From a bacterium HR37 (GTDB taxonomy: Bacteria > Desulfobacterota_D > UBA1144 > Nemesobacterales > CSP1-2): a stretch of 64,000 bases of DNA. Under the pieces are notes generated by a model, which saw only the letters and a list, made by a program, of their open reading frames with translations, was not told the origin of the DNA and made no database searches. A program made the position numbers and the translations under genes. Below, one piece after another: positions 21,477 to 29,860 of the stretch (its first letter is position 1; every line of letters starts with the position of its first letter). The DNA is taken from positions 186,001-250,000 of the forward strand of contig BEIN01000001.1 in the NCBI GenBank assembly GCA_002898375.1. Direction: 5' to 3'.

Positions 21477-24167
21477 ATGGGTATAATGGATAAGGACGTA
21501 AGGGATAAGGAGTCTTCTGAGCTTGAGGAGATAGAGACCAGGGAGTGGTTAGAGTCTCTTGACTATGTGCTTCAGAGAGGTGGGCCTGAGAGGGTAAGGG
21601 CGTTACTTAAGCAACTCCAGGTCCATGCTCAGAAGGCTGGTGTTAAGATACCCTTTACAGCAAACACCCCATACATAAACACAATCCCTGTGGAAGAACA
21701 ACCTCCCTTCCCTGGTAGCCGTGAGATAGAGAGGAGGATAAGGAGCATAATTCGCTGGAATGCAATGGCCATGGTGGTAAGGGCCAATCGTCTTGAGGAG
21801 GGGATAGGTGGACACATATCAACCTATGCTTCTGCTGCCACACTTTACGAGATAGGGTTTAACCATTTCTTCAGGGCAAGAACGGAGGATTTTGAGGGGG
21901 ATTTGATATATTTTCAGGGGCATGCATCCCCGGGGATATATGCCCGTGCCTTTCTGGAAGGTCGTCTAACTGTGGAGCAGCTTGAGAACTTCAGAAGGGA
22001 GCTTCAACCCGGGGGTGGGCTATCATCTTACCCACATCCATGGCTTATGCCCAATTTCTGGCAGTTCCCAACGGTGTCAATGGGTCTTGGGCCCATAATG
22101 GCAATTTATCAGGCAAGGTTTAACAGGTATCTGGAGCACAGAGGGCTTAAGAAGCCTTCAGATGCTAAGGTGTGGGCGTTTGTTGGTGATGGTGAGGTTG
22201 ATGAGCCTGAGACCCTTGGGGCAATAACGCTTGCTGCACGCGAGAGGCTGGATAACTTAATCTTTGTTGTAAACTGTAATCTTCAGAGGCTAGATGGACC
22301 TGTACGTGGCAATGGGAAGATAATACAGGAGCTTGAGGCTATATTTAGGGGGGCTGGGTGGAATGTGATTAAGGTTATATGGGGAAGTGATTGGGACCCG
22401 CTTCTTGCAAAGGACAAAGATGGCATACTGGTTAAAAGGATGGAGGAGACAGTTGATGGGCAGTACCAGAAGTACAGTGTTGAGTCAGGAAAGTACATAA
22501 GGGAGCACTTCTTCGGGGTTGACCCAAGGCTGCTTGAGATGGTAAAGCACCTCTCGGATGAGCAGTTAAGGAAGCTAAGGCGTGGTGGGCATGACCCTGA
22601 GAAGGTGTATGCAGCGTATAAGGCTGCGGTGGAGCATAAAGGGGCCCCTACTGTAATACTTGCCAAGACGATAAAGGGGTATGGTCTTGGTGAGAGTGGG
22701 GAGGGGAAAAACATTACCCATCAGCAAAAGAAGCTAAATGAAGAGGAGCTAAGGGAGTTTAGAAGCAGGTTTGGGATACCGATTTCGGATGAGGATGTTG
22801 CAAAGGCCCCGTTTTACAAACCCCCTGATGACAGCCCGGAGATGAAGTACCTTCATGCAAGGAGGCAAGAGCTTGGGGGCTATGTTCCCCAGCGTGTGGT
22901 TAAGTGTAAGCCCCTTAAGGCTCCACCTGAGGAGTTGTTTGAGGAGTTCTACAGGGGTTCAAATGGCAGAGAGGTCTCTACCACGATGGCATATGTGCGG
23001 ATCCTTATGAAGCTTATGAGGGATAAGGAGATAGGGAAGCTAATTGTTCCCATTATTCCGGATGAGGCAAGGACATTTGGTATGGAGGGGCTATTTAGGC
23101 AATTTGGTATATACTCAAGTGTGGGCCAGCTCTATGAGCCGGTGGACAAGGAAACACTTCTTTACTACAAGGAGGCAAAGGATGGACAGATACTGGAGGA
23201 GGGGATAACCGAGGCTGGGGCAATGTCTTCTTTCATAGCGGCTGGAACCGCATATGCAACGCATGGGATAAATACGATTCCGTTTTTTACCTTCTACTCC
23301 ATGTTTGGGTTTCAGAGGATAGGGGATCTTATATGGGCAGCAGGGGATATGAGATGCAAGGGGTTTTTGGTGGGTGGAACCTCGGGGAAGACAACGCTTG
23401 CAGGGGAGGGGCTTCAGCACCAGGATGGTCACAGCCACCTTCTTGCCTACCCACTTCCCAATCTAAAGGCCTATGACCCTGCATACGCGTATGAGCTGGC
23501 AGTAATAATACAGGATGGGATAAAGCGTATGTATGAGGAGCAGCAAGATGTTTTTTACTACATAACGGTAACCAATGAGCCATACGTTCAACCACCAATG
23601 CCAAGTGGGGTAAAAGAGGGGATTATAAAGGGGATGTATAAATTTAGGGCAGCAGAACACAGGAACCCAAAGCTACATGCCCATCTCTTTGGTAGCGGGG
23701 CGATTCTTAATGAGGCACTAAAGGCTCAGAAGATACTTGAGGAAAGGTATGAGGTAAGTGCTGATGTATGGAGTATAACAAGTTACAAAGAGCTCTACAG
23801 GGATGGTCATGAGGTTGAGAGGTGGAATATGCTTCATCCCTCGGAGATACAGAGGATCCCGTATGTAACCCAGTGTCTTCAAAATGAGGATGGGGTGTTT
23901 GTGGCGGTATCAGACTATGTTAAAGCCCTGCCTGATTCCATATCCAGATGGTTTCCAAAACCGCTTGTGGCACTGGGAACAGATGGGTTTGGAAGGAGTG
24001 ATAGCAGAAAGGCCTTAAGGGATTTCTTTGAGGTTGATGCAAGGTTTATCACACTTGCTGCCCTATGGGCACTTGCAAAGGAGAAGAGGATAAAGATAGA
24101 GGTTGTTGAACACGCAATAAAGGACCTCGATATAAACCCTGCAAAGGCAAATCCAATGATCTCATAG
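21477..24167 (+). CDS. aceE: Pyruvate dehydrogenase E1, homodimeric type
   Basis: 896-aa thiamine-diphosphate enzyme that decarboxylates pyruvate and acetylates the E2 lipoyl arm. The TPP motif starts at GDGE (residues 237-240) and ends about 30 residues on with NCNLQ. The length and order (TPP domain, pyrimidine domain, C-terminal domain) match the AceE form used by many proteobacteria, not the alpha/beta E1. A GGGAGGGGG ribosome site precedes the ATG at 21477; a second in-frame ATG is at 21486. It starts the aceE-aceF-lpd operon, 9 bp from aceF. Confidence 0.95.
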   Translation: MGIMDKDVRDKESSELEEIETREWLESLDYVLQRGGPERVRALLKQLQVHAQKAGVKIPFTANTPYINTIPVEEQPPFPGSREIERRIRSIIRWNAMAMVVRANRLEEGIGGHISTYASAATLYEIGFNHFFRARTEDFEGDLIYFQGHASPGIYARAFLEGRLTVEQLENFRRELQPGGGLSSYPHPWLMPNFWQFPTVSMGLGPIMAIYQARFNRYLEHRGLKKPSDAKVWAFVGDGEVDEPETLGAITLAARERLDNLIFVVNCNLQRLDGPVRGNGKIIQELEAIFRGAGWNVIKVIWGSDWDPLLAKDKDGILVKRMEETVDGQYQKYSVESGKYIREHFFGVDPRLLEMVKHLSDEQLRKLRRGGHDPEKVYAAYKAAVEHKGAPTVILAKTIKGYGLGESGEGKNITHQQKKLNEEELREFRSRFGIPISDEDVAKAPFYKPPDDSPEMKYLHARRQELGGYVPQRVVKCKPLKAPPEELFEEFYRGSNGREVSTTMAYVRILMKLMRDKEIGKLIVPIIPDEARTFGMEGLFRQFGIYSSVGQLYEPVDKETLLYYKEAKDGQILEEGITEAGAMSSFIAAGTAYATHGINTIPFFTFYSMFGFQRIGDLIWAAGDMRCKGFLVGGTSGKTTLAGEGLQHQDGHSHLLAYPLPNLKAYDPAYAYELAVIIQDGIKRMYEEQQDVFYYITVTNEPYVQPPMPSGVKEGIIKGMYKFRAAEHRNPKLHAHLFGSGAILNEALKAQKILEERYEVSADVWSITSYKELYRDGHEVERWNMLHPSEIQRIPYVTQCLQNEDGVFVAVSDYVKALPDSISRWFPKPLVALGTDGFGRSDSRKALRDFFEVDARFITLAALWALAKEKRIKIEVVEHAIKDLDINPAKANPMIS

Positions 24168-24176
24168 GGGGATATT

Positions 24177-25511
24177 ATGGCGATTGAGTTTAGGCTTCCT
24201 GAGCTTGGTGAGAATATAGAGGAGGGGGATGTGGTAAAGGTGCTAGTTTCTGTAGGTGATAGGGTTACAAAAGATCAGCCTGTAATGGAGGTAGAGACGG
24301 AGAAGGCTGCCGTTGAGATCCCATCTCCTGCAGATGGGGTTGTAAGGGAGGTACATGTAAGGGAAGGACAGAAGGTAAGGGTAGGAGAGCTTCTTCTGGT
24401 TATAGAGGAGGCAGGAGAGAAAGAGGAAGAGGTTAAGAGGGAGATGGAGAAAAGGGAAGTTAGGGCAAGGGTTGAGGAAGCAGTTGGGAAGGAAAAGGAG
24501 GCTCCTTCTTTACCTGAGGTTGAGGTTAAAGAAGAAAAGGAGCAGGAGGGGGAGGTGGTTGAGTTTTTTCGGCAGGCGGCAAGGGAGGTACATGGTGAGC
24601 CAAGGAGGGTTGCACCTGCTGCTCCTTCGGTAAGGAGGCTTGCTCGTGAGCTAGGTGTTGATATAAACGAGGTGCCGGGTACTGGTCCTGGTGGGAGGAT
24701 ATCTGAGGAGGATGTAAAGAGGTATGCTAGAGAACTGATTTCGGGGATAAGAGGGCAGAGGGTTGAGACTCCTCTGCAGACCGAGCCTGAGCTTCCTGAC
24801 TTTAGCAGGTGGGGGGATATAGAGAGAAGGCCTATGAGCAGTGTGCGTCGTAAAACTGCACAGCAGGTAAGCCTTGGCTGGAGGGCACCTCATGTAACCC
24901 AGCATGATAAGGCAGACATTACGGAGCTTGAGAAGGTAAGGAGGCAGTTTGGAAAGAGGGTGGAAGAGGCCGGGGGTAAGCTTACGGTAACTGCGATAAT
25001 GCTTAAGGTTGTAGCCTCGGCTCTAAAGGTCTTTCCCCAGTTTAATGCGAGTGTGGATATGGCGCGTGGGGAGATTGTGTACAAGAGGTACTACCACATA
25101 GGGGTCGCTGTGGATACAGACCGCGGGCTTTTGGTGCCGGTTATTAGGGATGTAGACAAAAAAAATATCTTTGAGCTCTCTCTTGAGCTTACAGATGTCT
25201 CTGAGAGGGCAAGGAATAAAAAGATTACACCTGAGGAGATGCAGGGAGGGAGTTTTACGATAAGCAATCTTGGTGGGCTTGGTGGTACGTTTTTTACCCC
25301 CATTATAAACTTTCCCGAGGTTGCCATCCTTGGCATATCACGTGCGATTAGAGAGCCTGTATTTACCGGAAGCGGTTTTGAACCAAGGCTTATGCTTCCC
25401 CTTTCTCTCTCTTATGACCACCGGGTTATTGATGGGGCTGATGCTGTTCGTTTTCTCAGGTGGATAGTAGAGGCACTTGAAGAGCCGTTTAAACTGCTTC
25501 TTGAGGGATAG
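24177..25511 (+). CDS. aceF: Dihydrolipoamide acetyltransferase (PDH E2)
   Basis: 444-aa E2 core. One lipoyl domain (1-75) with the target Lys43 in VETEKAAVE is followed by a charged Glu/Lys/Val-rich linker (about 80-140). The E3-binding domain (about 143-182, VRRLARELGVDINEVPGTG) and the catalytic domain end with the DHRVIDG active site (Asp414-Gly420, catalytic His415). A single lipoyl domain is fewer than the three of E. coli. It lies between aceE and a second E3 gene. Confidence 0.95.
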   Translation: MAIEFRLPELGENIEEGDVVKVLVSVGDRVTKDQPVMEVETEKAAVEIPSPADGVVREVHVREGQKVRVGELLLVIEEAGEKEEEVKREMEKREVRARVEEAVGKEKEAPSLPEVEVKEEKEQEGEVVEFFRQAAREVHGEPRRVAPAAPSVRRLARELGVDINEVPGTGPGGRISEEDVKRYARELISGIRGQRVETPLQTEPELPDFSRWGDIERRPMSSVRRKTAQQVSLGWRAPHVTQHDKADITELEKVRRQFGKRVEEAGGKLTVTAIMLKVVASALKVFPQFNASVDMARGEIVYKRYYHIGVAVDTDRGLLVPVIRDVDKKNIFELSLELTDVSERARNKKITPEEMQGGSFTISNLGGLGGTFFTPIINFPEVAILGISRAIREPVFTGSGFEPRLMLPLSLSYDHRVIDGADAVRFLRWIVEALEEPFKLLLEG

Positions 25512-25515
25512 GGAT

Positions 25516-26943
25516 ATGAGTGGGGAGAAAAAGACCACAGGGGTTGCGGTTATCGGTGGGGGCCCGGGAGGATACCCAGCAGCGTTTCTTGCCTCAGACC
25601 TTGGAATGGATGTTACGCTTATTGATATGGAGCCCAACCCTGGAGGTGTGTGCCTTTATAGAGGCTGTATTCCCTCCAAGGCACTCCTTCATGTAGCCAG
25701 AGTTATAGCGGAGGCCCGTCATGCATCCAGATGGGGGGTTGAGTTTCCAGAGCCAACTGTGGATATAGATAGGCTTAGGGAGTGGAAAAACTCTGTTGTA
25801 AGAAAGCTTACAGGTGGGCTTGGACAGCTTACAAAGAAGAGAGGGATTAACTACATCCAGGGTAGGGCAAGTTTTTTAAGCCCAAATACCCTAAGGATTG
25901 AGAAAGATGGAGGGGAAGAGCTCCTCCTTGGGTTTAGCCATGCGGTTATAGCAACCGGCTCAAGACCTGCTTTGCTTCCCGACATATCCATAAATAGTCC
26001 GCGTATTATGGATTCAACGGATGCACTTGAACTTCCAGATATACCAAGAACCATGCTTGTTGTTGGTGGTGGATACATAGGGCTTGAGCTGGGAAGTGTT
26101 TATGCAACCCTTGGAACAAGGGTTACTGTGGTTGAGATGACCTCGGGTTTAATGCCAGGGGTTGATAGGGATCTTGTTTCGGTGCTTTCAAGGCGGCTTG
26201 AGAGGCTATTTGATGGGATAGTGCTTAACACAAAGGTAGTGGATATGAGGGAGGAAAGGGAAGGGATAAAGGTAAGGTTTGAAGGAGCCAGCAAGGAGGA
26301 GAGGGTATTTGACAGGGTGCTTATCTCTGTAGGACGGGTTCCAAACTCAACCAACCTGGGACTTGAGGGTTTAGGGATTAGGGTTGATAAGAAGGGCTTT
26401 ATCATTGTGGATGAGAAACGCAGAACCAACATCCCAAATATCTATGCTATTGGGGATGTTGCAGGAGAGCCAATGCTTGCACACAAGGCTACCCATGAGG
26501 GAAGGACGGTGGCTGAGGCTATTGCCGGTCGCAAGGTGGCATTTGAGCCAAGGGCAATCCCTTCAGTCGTCTTTACAGATCCAGAGATTGCCTGGTGTGG
26601 GCTTACAGAAACTGAGGCAAGAGAGAAGAAGATCCCGGTTAAGGTTGCAAGGTTTCCCTGGAGTGCATCTGGAAGGGCAACAACCCTTGACAGAAATGAT
26701 GGCGTTACAAAGCTCATACTGGAGCCTGAAACTAATCGCGTACTTGGTGTGGGTATAGTAGGGATTGGGGCTGGAGAGCTTATTTCCGAAGGAGCTCTGG
26801 CAATTGAGATGGCAGCCCTTGCCTCAGACCTTGAACTCACAGTACATCCACATCCAACCCTGTCTGAAACCATTATGGAAGCAGCAGAGGTAGCCCTTGG
26901 TACCTCTACACACCTGCTTTACGGAACCGGAAAAAGCAAATGA
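25516..26943 (+). CDS. Dihydrolipoamide dehydrogenase-type flavoprotein, copy 2
   Basis: 475-aa E3-like enzyme. FAD motif GGGPGG (14-19), redox pair Cys46/Cys51 in GGVCLYRGCIPSK, NAD motif GGGYIGLE, C-terminal HPHPTLSET. The start is taken at the ATG at 25516, behind a purine-rich GGGATAGGG; a longer frame begins 39 bp upstream inside aceF without such a site. It differs clearly from the lpdA at 19.9-21.3 kb, so it is an old duplication or separate acquisition. It may be the dedicated PDH E3, while the other serves other complexes, or the reverse. Confidence 0.9.
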   Translation: MSGEKKTTGVAVIGGGPGGYPAAFLASDLGMDVTLIDMEPNPGGVCLYRGCIPSKALLHVARVIAEARHASRWGVEFPEPTVDIDRLREWKNSVVRKLTGGLGQLTKKRGINYIQGRASFLSPNTLRIEKDGGEELLLGFSHAVIATGSRPALLPDISINSPRIMDSTDALELPDIPRTMLVVGGGYIGLELGSVYATLGTRVTVVEMTSGLMPGVDRDLVSVLSRRLERLFDGIVLNTKVVDMREEREGIKVRFEGASKEERVFDRVLISVGRVPNSTNLGLEGLGIRVDKKGFIIVDEKRRTNIPNIYAIGDVAGEPMLAHKATHEGRTVAEAIAGRKVAFEPRAIPSVVFTDPEIAWCGLTETEAREKKIPVKVARFPWSASGRATTLDRNDGVTKLILEPETNRVLGVGIVGIGAGELISEGALAIEMAALASDLELTVHPHPTLSETIMEAAEVALGTSTHLLYGTGKSK

Positions 26944-26945
26944 GC

Positions 26946-27656
26946 TTAGGCCTTTCCAAAAACAGGTATCCCGGCTCCGCTTATTGGTTTTGACTCATCT
27001 GATGCCAGAAACACAACTACCCGTGCTATCTCTTCAGGCTTTACCCACTTTGAGAAGTCTGCCTCAGGCATTGCTTTCCTGTTTGCGGGGGTATCAATAA
27101 CACTTGGCAGTATCGCATTTACGTTTATATCGTATTCCCTGACTTCCTCGGCTATTGCTTCTGTCAGGTTTAGAACCCCGGCTTTAGATGCCCCATATGC
27201 TCCAACACCCGCGGCTCCCTTTAAGGCCGGACGTGATGATATGTTTATTATCTTACCGTAGTTTTGCTTTATCATGTGGGGTAGAACCGCTTTTGAACAC
27301 AGAAAGGTGGATTTTAAGTTGATATTCATCATGTGATCCCAGGTTTTTTCATCGGTTTCCACAACTGGAGCATAAGCAAATCCCCCAACAGTATTTACAA
27401 GTATATCTATTCTCCCGAACCTCCTTAGCGTTTTCTGAACCGTTCTTTCTACCTGCTTTTGCTTTATAACGTTTGTTTTTGTAAACACGATTTGGTCCCT
27501 AAACTGTGAGAGAAGCGGTAAAACGTCCCTAAGTTCTTCATCCACGATGTATGTGCATATTACTTTTGCCCCTTCCTTTAGGAACTCAGATACAATTACC
27601 CTTCCAAGTGCTCCTGTTCCTCCAGTTACAATGGCTACTTTTTCTTTGAGCTTCAT
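26946..27656 (-). CDS. Short-chain dehydrogenase/reductase
   Basis: 236-aa SDR oxidoreductase. The NAD(P) motif is VTGGTGALGRV (about residues 10-20), followed by NTVGG, the catalytic Ser in ISSRPA and YxxxK in YGASKAG. It probably reduces a ketone or oxidises an alcohol; specificity is unknown. It is convergent with the copy-2 E3 gene (2 bp between stops) and follows the RNA ligase gene on the same strand. Confidence 0.88.
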   Translation of the reverse strand: MKLKEKVAIVTGGTGALGRVIVSEFLKEGAKVICTYIVDEELRDVLPLLSQFRDQIVFTKTNVIKQKQVERTVQKTLRRFGRIDILVNTVGGFAYAPVVETDEKTWDHMMNINLKSTFLCSKAVLPHMIKQNYGKIINISSRPALKGAAGVGAYGASKAGVLNLTEAIAEEVREYDINVNAILPSVIDTPANRKAMPEADFSKWVKPEEIARVVVFLASDESKPISGAGIPVFGKA

Positions 27657-27676: not shown

Positions 27677-28768
27677 TTAGTCGATGTGACCATAACCTTT
27701 GAGTATTTCACGGAATCGCCGTGTGCTTTTCCGGAATAAGCGGTAAAACTCTATCTTAAACATCTCGGTGTTCTCAAGAACCACATGCTCAATGCTTTCG
27801 GTCTTTACAGATACGTGGGTTTTAAGCAGATTGCGAAGTGCATTCCAGGTTCGAAGGTTTTTTACGTATATTGTGTACTTCTCTCTTGAGCCTTCAAAGC
27901 TCTCCAGGGGAGCATATCCATCCAGAAAGGCCTTTCCAATCAGGTGGGCATACTTGCTTTCATCCAGCTTAAACTCCCTTACAAAGAGGGATATTCTTAA
28001 GAGTCTGTTTGTTATAAAGCCGGGTTCCAGATCAAACTCGAGTATAAGGTTATCCCTTATGTCTTTTAGGTCGGTCAGAGGGGTAACGAATTTTAACGCA
28101 CGGTTACCTGAATTGCTCTTTAAAACAACTCCCTCTCGTTCTCTGTCGTTAAGGTCAAGTAGGATCGCATAGAGCCTATCTATCTGCTCCAGGGAGAACT
28201 GACCCAGCAATGGAACAGAAGGAAGTCCATATGAATTTACAATCTCATATCGGTCACGTACGCGCATAAACTCTCCATCTGGTTTTGCGATCTCAAACAC
28301 AAAGAATGAAAGACCTGGTGGAATCAGTGGGTCTCTTTGAGGATTATAAGGGTTATCCCCAAGAACCTCACAGAATAGGATGTGGTCTGGAAATGAGGTA
28401 AAGAAACGATTGAGTCTGTGTTTGTACCACCATATCTCCTCAGCCCATTCCGAGGTAAAGGGACAGATAAAGCCACCCCGGGTGATAGCAAGAACTTTGC
28501 CCTGGTGAACCAGTATGCGAACGTTATAGCCATCAAGTTTTTCCTCCGCAAAGAAGGGAGCTGTGTGAAAGAACCTCTGTATTCCCTGGTGTAGGCGGTA
28601 CACGCGTTTTATATGAGGAAAACCTGGTACAGTACGTATGGGTCTTTGTCCACTTGCATCAAAAAGCACAACCGTACCCCTTGGGGTGTGGCCAATGTCA
28701 TCTGCATAACGCAGGTACTTAAGGCCGTTATAGCTGAGCTCTTCCACACTACGATCCACACTCCTCAT
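27677..28768 (-). CDS. ATP-dependent RNA ligase, archaeal Pab1020/Rnl3 type
   Basis: 363-aa nucleotidyltransferase. The adenylation lysine is Lys77 in EEKLDGYNVRI (KxDG motif I). Later ligase motifs are visible as FCEVLGDNPY, GLSFFVFEI and EGVVLKSN. A C-terminal helical domain (about 245-363) matches the homodimeric Rnl3 family, best known from Archaea, where it can circularise RNA. It overlaps the PIN partner gene by 4 bp (ATGA), with a GAGGAG ribosome site. The natural RNA substrate is unknown. The family call is strong; the role is open. Confidence 0.9.
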   Translation of the reverse strand: MRSVDRSVEELSYNGLKYLRYADDIGHTPRGTVVLFDASGQRPIRTVPGFPHIKRVYRLHQGIQRFFHTAPFFAEEKLDGYNVRILVHQGKVLAITRGGFICPFTSEWAEEIWWYKHRLNRFFTSFPDHILFCEVLGDNPYNPQRDPLIPPGLSFFVFEIAKPDGEFMRVRDRYEIVNSYGLPSVPLLGQFSLEQIDRLYAILLDLNDREREGVVLKSNSGNRALKFVTPLTDLKDIRDNLILEFDLEPGFITNRLLRISLFVREFKLDESKYAHLIGKAFLDGYAPLESFEGSREKYTIYVKNLRTWNALRNLLKTHVSVKTESIEHVVLENTEMFKIEFYRLFRKSTRRFREILKGYGHID

Positions 28769-29415
28769 ACTTGCTCCTCATCTGGCTTTGTGTATCTGTT
28801 TATAAAATAATCAGCTGAATATACCTCTATACCCAGAGCTTCGGCCATTTTTGCAATCCCCTCGTCAGCTGAAAGGATTGCACCACCTACCTCTTTGGCA
28901 AGAAGCACAACATCAAGGTCTTCAACGCTATCCACTATACCGCTTCGGAGGGCTTCTCTGTACTGCTGTCTCAGGCGTCTTAGGTTCTCAGGGGTGGGTT
29001 CTCTGTAGATCGCCTCTTCTGCAATCCTTAACCCCTTGTTAATGCGTTCCCTGAGTTCCCGGATGAATATGTGAAGTATAGCGGCTGGTACATGGAGGTT
29101 ATATATATCCGGAGCCCTTACTATGGCCTCCTGGCGAAACAGTACAAGGGCTTCTTTCGATGTGAAGTGGGAAAGCTCACGGAATACCGAGATGGGCATG
29201 TATATTTCGATCTTGTTTCTGCGTACTATGTCAAGGAAGTTCCTTACAGCCTGTTCTACATCTGCTCCAAACCTGCTCTGGGTTTCAGGGTTAACAAACA
29301 GGCTTGTGTCAAGAACAAGTCGGGGGCGCACTGGGACAAGAGATGTCTTCTCCTCATATGGTTTTAACTTTTGCATCTTCTGTGTTTTCCTTGGAGGTCT
29401 TTCCTGTCCTTCCAT
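28765..29415 (-). CDS. RNA ligase partner protein, PIN-domain
   Basis: 216-aa PIN-domain protein. The first acidic motif is LVLDTSLFVNPET (about residue 37), with further acids in VEDLDVVLLAKEV and LSADEGIAKMA, the usual pattern of a magnesium-dependent ribonuclease site. It matches the conserved 'RNA ligase partner' family, which is found next to Rnl3-type RNA ligases. It may cut or trim the RNAs that the ligase seals. AAGGGA precedes the ATG. It is first in the minus-strand pair, divergent from the 112-aa gene. Confidence 0.88.
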   Translation of the reverse strand: MEGQERPPRKTQKMQKLKPYEEKTSLVPVRPRLVLDTSLFVNPETQSRFGADVEQAVRNFLDIVRRNKIEIYMPISVFRELSHFTSKEALVLFRQEAIVRAPDIYNLHVPAAILHIFIRELRERINKGLRIAEEAIYREPTPENLRRLRQQYREALRSGIVDSVEDLDVVLLAKEVGGAILSADEGIAKMAEALGIEVYSADYFINRYTKPDEEQV

Positions 29416-29469: not shown

Positions 29470-29499
29470 TTGACAATCCAAGTGGTGTAAAATTAAAAT
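29470..29499 (+). promoter_or_regulatory. Promoter of the 112-aa gene/CBS unit
   Basis: TTGACA (29470-29475) and TAAAAT (29494-29499) are 18 nt apart, 22 bp before the first ATG at 29522. Confidence 0.55.
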
Positions 29500-29521: not shown

Positions 29522-29860
29522 ATGGATCTTTTAATCTCTATGAAGGCTGAACCCATTGAGAAAGGGCTTGAACCAAGGTGGAGTACTATGACCACGCCAG
29601 CTGCCCAGACGGGAGGATACTTTATAGCTGAATTTAGAGAGGGGGATCAGGAAAAACTTAGACTCCTTATAATGTATGCTGAGATCCTGCGGAGCAAACT
29701 GGATGGAGAGGAGTTTCAGATAGAGCTTACGCAGTTTGGATTCATTCTAAAGAAGAAGGTTGACCAGGATGTAGAGTATATAAAGGCCTGGGATAGCTGG
29801 GTTGAGTTCTCAAGGTCCATTTATGAGAAGCTTGTAGATATACTTGAGGGTTCAGATTGA
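29522..29860 (+). CDS. Small soluble protein, function unknown
   Basis: 112-aa mixed alpha/beta protein without a signal peptide or membrane segment; the well-structured part begins near GGYFIAEF. The first ATG (29522) has no ribosome site. An internal ATG at 29588 follows GGTGGAG at a good distance and may be the true start (90 aa). It lies in front of the CBS protein gene (22 bp gap), likely the same transcript. No family recognised. Confidence 0.55.
   Translation: MDLLISMKAEPIEKGLEPRWSTMTTPAAQTGGYFIAEFREGDQEKLRLLIMYAEILRSKLDGEEFQIELTQFGFILKKKVDQDVEYIKAWDSWVEFSRSIYEKLVDILEGSD

Follow-up and report, generated by a model that had tools for sequence, protein, structure and literature searches.

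An overlapping HARP-Rnl3 gene pair in a bacterium with an RNA-based RNase P: a candidate operon for trimming and sealing RNA ends

The HARP proteins (homologs of Aquifex RNase P) are a known family of protein-only RNase P, and their partnership with the Rnl3 RNA ligase has already been reported (Seshadri and Gopalan, mBio 2025, PMC12153264). According to the main text of that survey, Rnl3 accompanies HARP in 89% of 751 HARP-positive genomes, the two are co-localised in about 80% of the cases from bacteria, and RNA repair, toxin-antitoxin activity, C/D-box RNA maturation and the removal of adenylated leaders are offered as ideas for the pair. The arrangement of the genes is called typically 'bidirectional', a term left undefined in the main text; a tandem order is given for 10 cases, one of them bacterial. 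The catalytic and tRNA-binding residues of HARP have been described (PMC8266387, PMC9051087, PMC10652100); of these, R125 and R129 of the Aquifex protein Aq880 and R138, R142 and R146 of PbHARP are required for cleaving pre-tRNA. ATP-dependent intramolecular ligation and a homodimeric form are known for archaeal members of Rnl3. The chemistries of the two enzymes fit, because RNase P-type cleavage leaves 5'-phosphate and 3'-OH ends (PMC10652100), and archaeal Rnl3 is described as sealing a 5'-phosphate to a 3'-OH (PMC5599603).

The window, i.e., the whole 64-kb stretch of DNA that was analysed, holds another instance of this published partnership. A sequence-only reading had pointed to the pair as one known from archaea and some bacteria, in agreement with the 2025 survey, and its coordinates (27677-29415, both open reading frames on the minus strand) are exact. 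The HARP gene (28765-29415, minus strand) encodes a PIN_5 nuclease of 216 aa and the gene for the Rnl3/Pab1020-type ATP-dependent RNA ligase (27677-28768, minus strand) a protein of 363 aa; the 4-bp overlap seen earlier is an ATGA shared by the HARP stop TGA and the ligase start ATG (28765-28768, minus strand). The junction reads GAGGAGCAAGTATGAGGAGTGTGG, and a purine-rich GAGGAG precedes the overlap, a layout that suggests translational coupling of HARP and ligase. The absence of linked tRNA or CRISPR also held, as no tRNA or Rfam family was matched anywhere within the 64-kb window and no CRISPR-like repeats were found across 18000-40000.

The 'RNA ligase partner' is assigned to its family by TIGR03875 (172.4 bits, cut-off 95.3) and PF08745 (167.4 bits, cut-off 27), and the PDB entries that it matches best are seven sequences named 'RNA-free ribonuclease P' (E 6e-40 to 5e-34). 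By these matches the partner is HARP; the earlier description of a PIN nuclease-like partner chose the right family but missed that this is HARP, with published structures and RNase P activity. In an alignment of 15 sequences, the acids D36, E80, D162, D166 and D184 are invariant, so that the catalytic acids of the PIN protein are conserved. Four of them correspond to D7, D138, D142 and D161 of Aq880 when the published residues are mapped through alignments, and E80 is probably the fifth catalytic acid, a Glu. The spike-helix arginines R149, R153 and R157 are likewise invariant in the 15 sequences and correspond to R138, R142 and R146 of PbHARP, the first two also to R125 and R129 of Aq880. 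The basic stretch of this helix is matched by R147, R149 and R153, and the predicted tRNA-binding arginines of the window HARP are R147, R149, R153 and R157. Since the published residues are all invariant, the window HARP should be an active nuclease, although the main text of PMC12153264 cites four bacterial HARPs that failed to cleave pre-tRNA in vitro. About 30 N-terminal residues are not conserved, and the exact HARP start codon is therefore uncertain.

Compared with Aq880, the window HARP shares the family and the catalytic and arginine residues, and differs in having Q151 in place of the Aquifex Lys (K127). A second difference lies in the host: Aquifex is without an RNA-based RNase P, whereas the window genome (2.42 Mb, 97.6% complete) contains both the RNase P RNA gene rnpB (323.9 bits) and RnpA (105.1 bits). 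HARP is therefore not needed as the sole RNase P, and a role of the Aquificaceae type is ruled out. Among 11 named HARP-bearing genomes, the RNase P RNA (RF00010) was not found in three with the bacterial class A model alone, which may reflect incomplete metagenome-assembled genomes (MAGs) or an RNA of another class missed by that model; RF00010 was unmatched in the MAGs G062 and G068 (the genomes of loci L031 and L037).

HARP could still back up RNase P in tRNA 5' maturation, with the ligase a separate enzyme that shares no substrate with it and is co-selected in harsh habitats. The intact active site and tRNA-binding arginines would fit such a role, as would the normal-looking tRNA set of the genome (44 tRNA matches) and the reports, in the main text of PMC12153264, that HARP complements RNase P defects of E. 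coli and yeast and that Aquifex has it as its only RNase P. Against these stand the ordinary rnpB and rnpA already in the genome, the CCA encoded in many of the sampled tRNA genes, which one HARP is stated to cut about 10-fold more slowly (PMC12153264), and the fixed-order overlapping or abutting tandem genes of several phyla with their joint presence or absence (see below), which argue for a shared process. On balance we consider a backup RNase P unlikely.

The ligase matches TIGR01209 near full-length (252.5 bits, cut-off 136.9) and is above the cut-off for PF09414 and for PF18330, 'Ligase Pab1020 C-terminal region'. This agrees with the Pab1020/Rnl3-type ligase and the Lys77 of a KxDG motif named in the sequence-only reading: K77, D79 and G80 of a KLDG motif are invariant in the 15 aligned sequences, as are E134, E212-G213, K217 and K226, and K77 is the predicted adenylated lysine. 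The best solved relatives are 8uce and 2vug, the latter PAB1020 itself (E 1e-57 to 3e-58), which match nearly the full length of the ligase, C-terminal region included. The resemblance to the Thermococcales enzyme ends at its setting. The latter acts on C/D-box RNAs and its gene is not beside HARP in T. kodakarensis, whereas the window ligase overlaps HARP in a host with no match to fibrillarin (PF01269), a search in which four archaeal controls were positive. Without fibrillarin there is no C/D-box system, so C/D-box RNAs cannot be the substrate here and their circularisation is ruled out as the function.

A related possibility is that HARP matures and Rnl3 circularises specific small RNAs, as has been proposed for C/D-box RNAs in archaea, the target here being a bacterial small RNA. 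A Thermococcus strain without the ligase loses C/D-box RNA circularisation (PMC9014305), and Seshadri and Gopalan propose in their main text that the 5' end is made by HARP (PMC12153264). The lack of a C/D-box system in this genome weighs against such a role, and known RNA families were found neither in the window nor near the pair in eight loci, where a conserved RNA beside the operon was sought with Rfam. We regard dedicated small-RNA circularisation as rather improbable.

The two genes are kept together in relatives. Among 58 genomes of the phylum, the ligase was above cut-off in five and HARP in the same five, with neither alone in any genome. All five come from a single family of seven genomes, and the remaining two have neither gene. 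The Fisher p values (2e-7 for the phylum, 0.048 for the family alone, 5/7) assume independent genomes, which these are not; the co-occurrence probably reflects one gain, and its p value is therefore not independent evidence. The pair is adjacent in all five family genomes while most other neighbour genes vary. With HARP alone as the query, 84,980 species genomes yielded 11 further loci, from Desulfobacterota-type genomes, Chloroflexota, Spirochaetota and one Micrarchaeota MAG, and the ligase adjoins HARP in every one; HARP and ligase are thus adjacent in 16/16 loci, those of the family and those reached through homology to the window HARP taken together. In the Micrarchaeota locus the genes are convergent. 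A wider survey of 400 Chloroflexota genomes gave no pair-bearing genome beyond one already known.

In the 15 bacterial loci, which span Chloroflexota, Spirochaetota, Desulfobacterota-type MAGs and the phylum of the window (window included), the order is tandem, HARP then ligase, without exception, and stop-start overlaps recur, e.g., in L033, L034 and L038. These loci share with the published partnership the two families, their adjacency, a patchy distribution in bacteria and archaea and, mostly, the company of an ordinary RNase P; they differ from it in their 15/15 tandem order against the typical 'bidirectional' arrangement, and a regular tandem order in these bacterial groups is not found in the main text of PMC12153264. 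Because the 15 loci were found by similarity to the window HARP, they represent its closer relatives and do not sample bacterial HARPs as a whole, and the tandem order may be a trait of this branch. The trees of HARP and of the ligase are in agreement (bacterial distance correlation 0.89; none of 2000 permutations as high). A Spirochaetaceae MAG falls within the Desulfobacterota-type group in both trees, and this suggests that the two genes were transferred together, although the contig could be misbinned; nearly all loci are MAG contigs.

Beyond bacteria, two haloarchaeal plasmid loci carry HARP and ligase divergently, and in three other HARP-carrying haloarchaeal plasmids no ligase match was found on the plasmid. 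Such copies, the patchy distribution, the two small overlapping genes with the nuclease first and the placement of PIN_5 in the VapC group by the main text of PMC12153264 would be in line with a toxin-antitoxin-like or defence system, in which a PIN nuclease of the VapC superfamily cuts tRNA and the ligase mends it. The plasmid copies are confined to haloarchaea, however, and no relatives of the pair were found in viral contigs and phages, by which a phage or viral origin or carrier is also ruled out. Neither protein matches the PADLOC anti-phage library, HARP requires oligomers and has a published RNase P specificity, HARP occurs without the ligase in the control genome of Haloferax volcanii, and Thermococcus is viable after deletion of the ligase (PMC9014305). 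A toxin-antitoxin or defence function is accordingly very improbable.

The neighbours of the pair in some relatives are RNA end-processing genes. In Chloroflexota, the gene for ThpR, the RNA 2',3'-cyclic phosphodiesterase, continues the operon in 4/4 loci, and its start lies within the final 8 bases of the ligase gene (ATGACTGA). All four ThpR genes (L033:7612-8271, L034:7621-7809, L038:7615-8226 and L039:4932-5555, plus strand) overlap the ligase end; three complete copies are above the TIGR02258 cut-off and the fourth is truncated by the contig end. The HARPs of these loci are only 58-76% identical, so the link does not stem from one recent copy. In two of the five family genomes (G001 and G005), RtcA, the RNA 3'-phosphate cyclase (TIGR03399, 383 bits), adjoins the ligase in convergent orientation, 25-400 bp downstream (L047:9852-10997 and L049:10864-11922, both minus strand), and HARP is preceded at about 100 bp, on its own strand, by a gene for a universal stress protein.

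The two links differ in what they imply. Because 2H phosphodiesterases convert 2',3'-cyclic phosphates to 3'-OH ends by opening them, the ThpR link favours RNA repair or circularisation under stress. RtcA makes 2',3'-cyclic phosphates, which suit RtcB (also present in the window genome) rather than Rnl3; the RtcA link is therefore ambiguous, and its place beside the ligase need not imply one shared pathway. In all, ThpR or RtcA adjoins the pair in 6/15 bacterial loci, so that the earlier term 'stand-alone' for the module was too strong. No RNA end-repair gene was seen among the neighbours scanned in the other nine, and none adjoins the pair in the window itself. ThpR or RtcA neighbours are not mentioned in the main text of PMC12153264.

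In the window, a FabG-like short-chain dehydrogenase gene (26946-27656, minus strand) lies 20 bp downstream of the ligase. The human mitochondrial protein-only RNase P has a short-chain dehydrogenase subunit, SDR5C1, but the resemblance looks accidental. The gene adjoins the pair in only three of the five family loci (the window and two genomes of a sister genus) and in no other locus; it is therefore probably a passenger, and a third partner comparable to SDR5C1 is ruled out. Three pyruvate dehydrogenase complex subunit-like genes in a row (AceE-like E1, E2 and E3; 21477-26943, plus strand) converge on the dehydrogenase-ligase-HARP run. On the other side, a 112-aa open reading frame (29522-29860, plus strand) with no match in Pfam or NCBIfam is divergent from HARP, its start 106 bp away, and a sigma-70-like site (11/12) is located at 29470-29499 on the plus strand.

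Building on the observed family membership, intact active sites, operon, conserved linkage, co-occurrence and end-processing neighbours in some relatives, we infer a common RNA substrate for the two enzymes, repair as their purpose and the kind of RNA that is handled. The HARP and Rnl3 genes would form one translationally coupled operon that trims and seals RNA ends. HARP, as an oligomeric Mg2+-dependent PIN nuclease, would cut a tRNA-like structured RNA, generating a 5'-phosphate and, on the piece set free, a 3'-OH; Rnl3, adenylated at Lys77, would then join 5'-phosphate to 3'-OH within one molecule or between fragments base-paired together. The likeliest substrates would be tRNA-like RNAs that are damaged or immature, and where genes for ThpR- or RtcA-type enzymes adjoin, these enzymes would heal the 3' ends. 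As the ordinary RNase P is present and would handle routine tRNA 5' maturation in this bacterium, the pair would be an auxiliary, stress-related system. This reading, an operon for RNA end trimming, repair or circularisation and sealing on tRNA-like RNA, is put forward tentatively, at slightly less than an even chance.

Several observations speak against it, among them the nine bacterial loci, the window included, in which no end-repair neighbour was seen, and the affinity of RtcA for RtcB rather than Rnl3. Growth is unharmed when HARP is deleted in Haloferax or Methanosarcina, or the ligase in Thermococcus, as stated in PMC12153264 and PMC9014305. A substrate RNA was found neither by Rfam near the pair in eight loci nor by comparison of 23S rRNA between pair-bearing G002 and pair-less G003. 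The 23S sequences of these two family members are collinear over 3,057 nt, and on their comparison it is ruled out that 23S fragments are rejoined once an intervening sequence has been cut out; in the window genome, 4,500 bases of the stretch fetched for 23S read N.

In its logic the proposed operon resembles the Rtc operon (RtcA-RtcB) and fungal Trl1, the ligase-kinase-phosphodiesterase tRNA ligase of fungi, in that some relatives encode the sealing enzyme alongside either a 2H phosphoesterase or a 3'-phosphate cyclase; the likeness is one of logic, not of descent. Unlike them, the window operon has an Rnl3 sealing enzyme and a HARP nuclease and no kinase. It is possible, if doubtful, that the tandem HARP-Rnl3 pair, joined in some loci by ThpR or RtcA, makes up a system of RNA repair and circularisation in bacteria that is distinct from Rtc. 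In it, HARP would re-cut tRNA-like RNAs that are damaged or aberrant and so provide clean 5'-phosphates, the 3' ends would be treated by ThpR or RtcA, and Rnl3 would seal.

These operons bear on the question of why some microbes hold a protein-only RNase P alongside an RNA-based one. An overlapping HARP-Rnl3 operon without C/D-box machinery, sometimes joined by an RNA 3'-end enzyme, makes the question testable without the archaeal C/D-box complication, and bacterial HARP-Rnl3 operons with 3'-end enzymes point to RNA repair. If a repair system separate from Rtc is indeed at work, bacterial protein-only RNase P would gain a role other than tRNA maturation.
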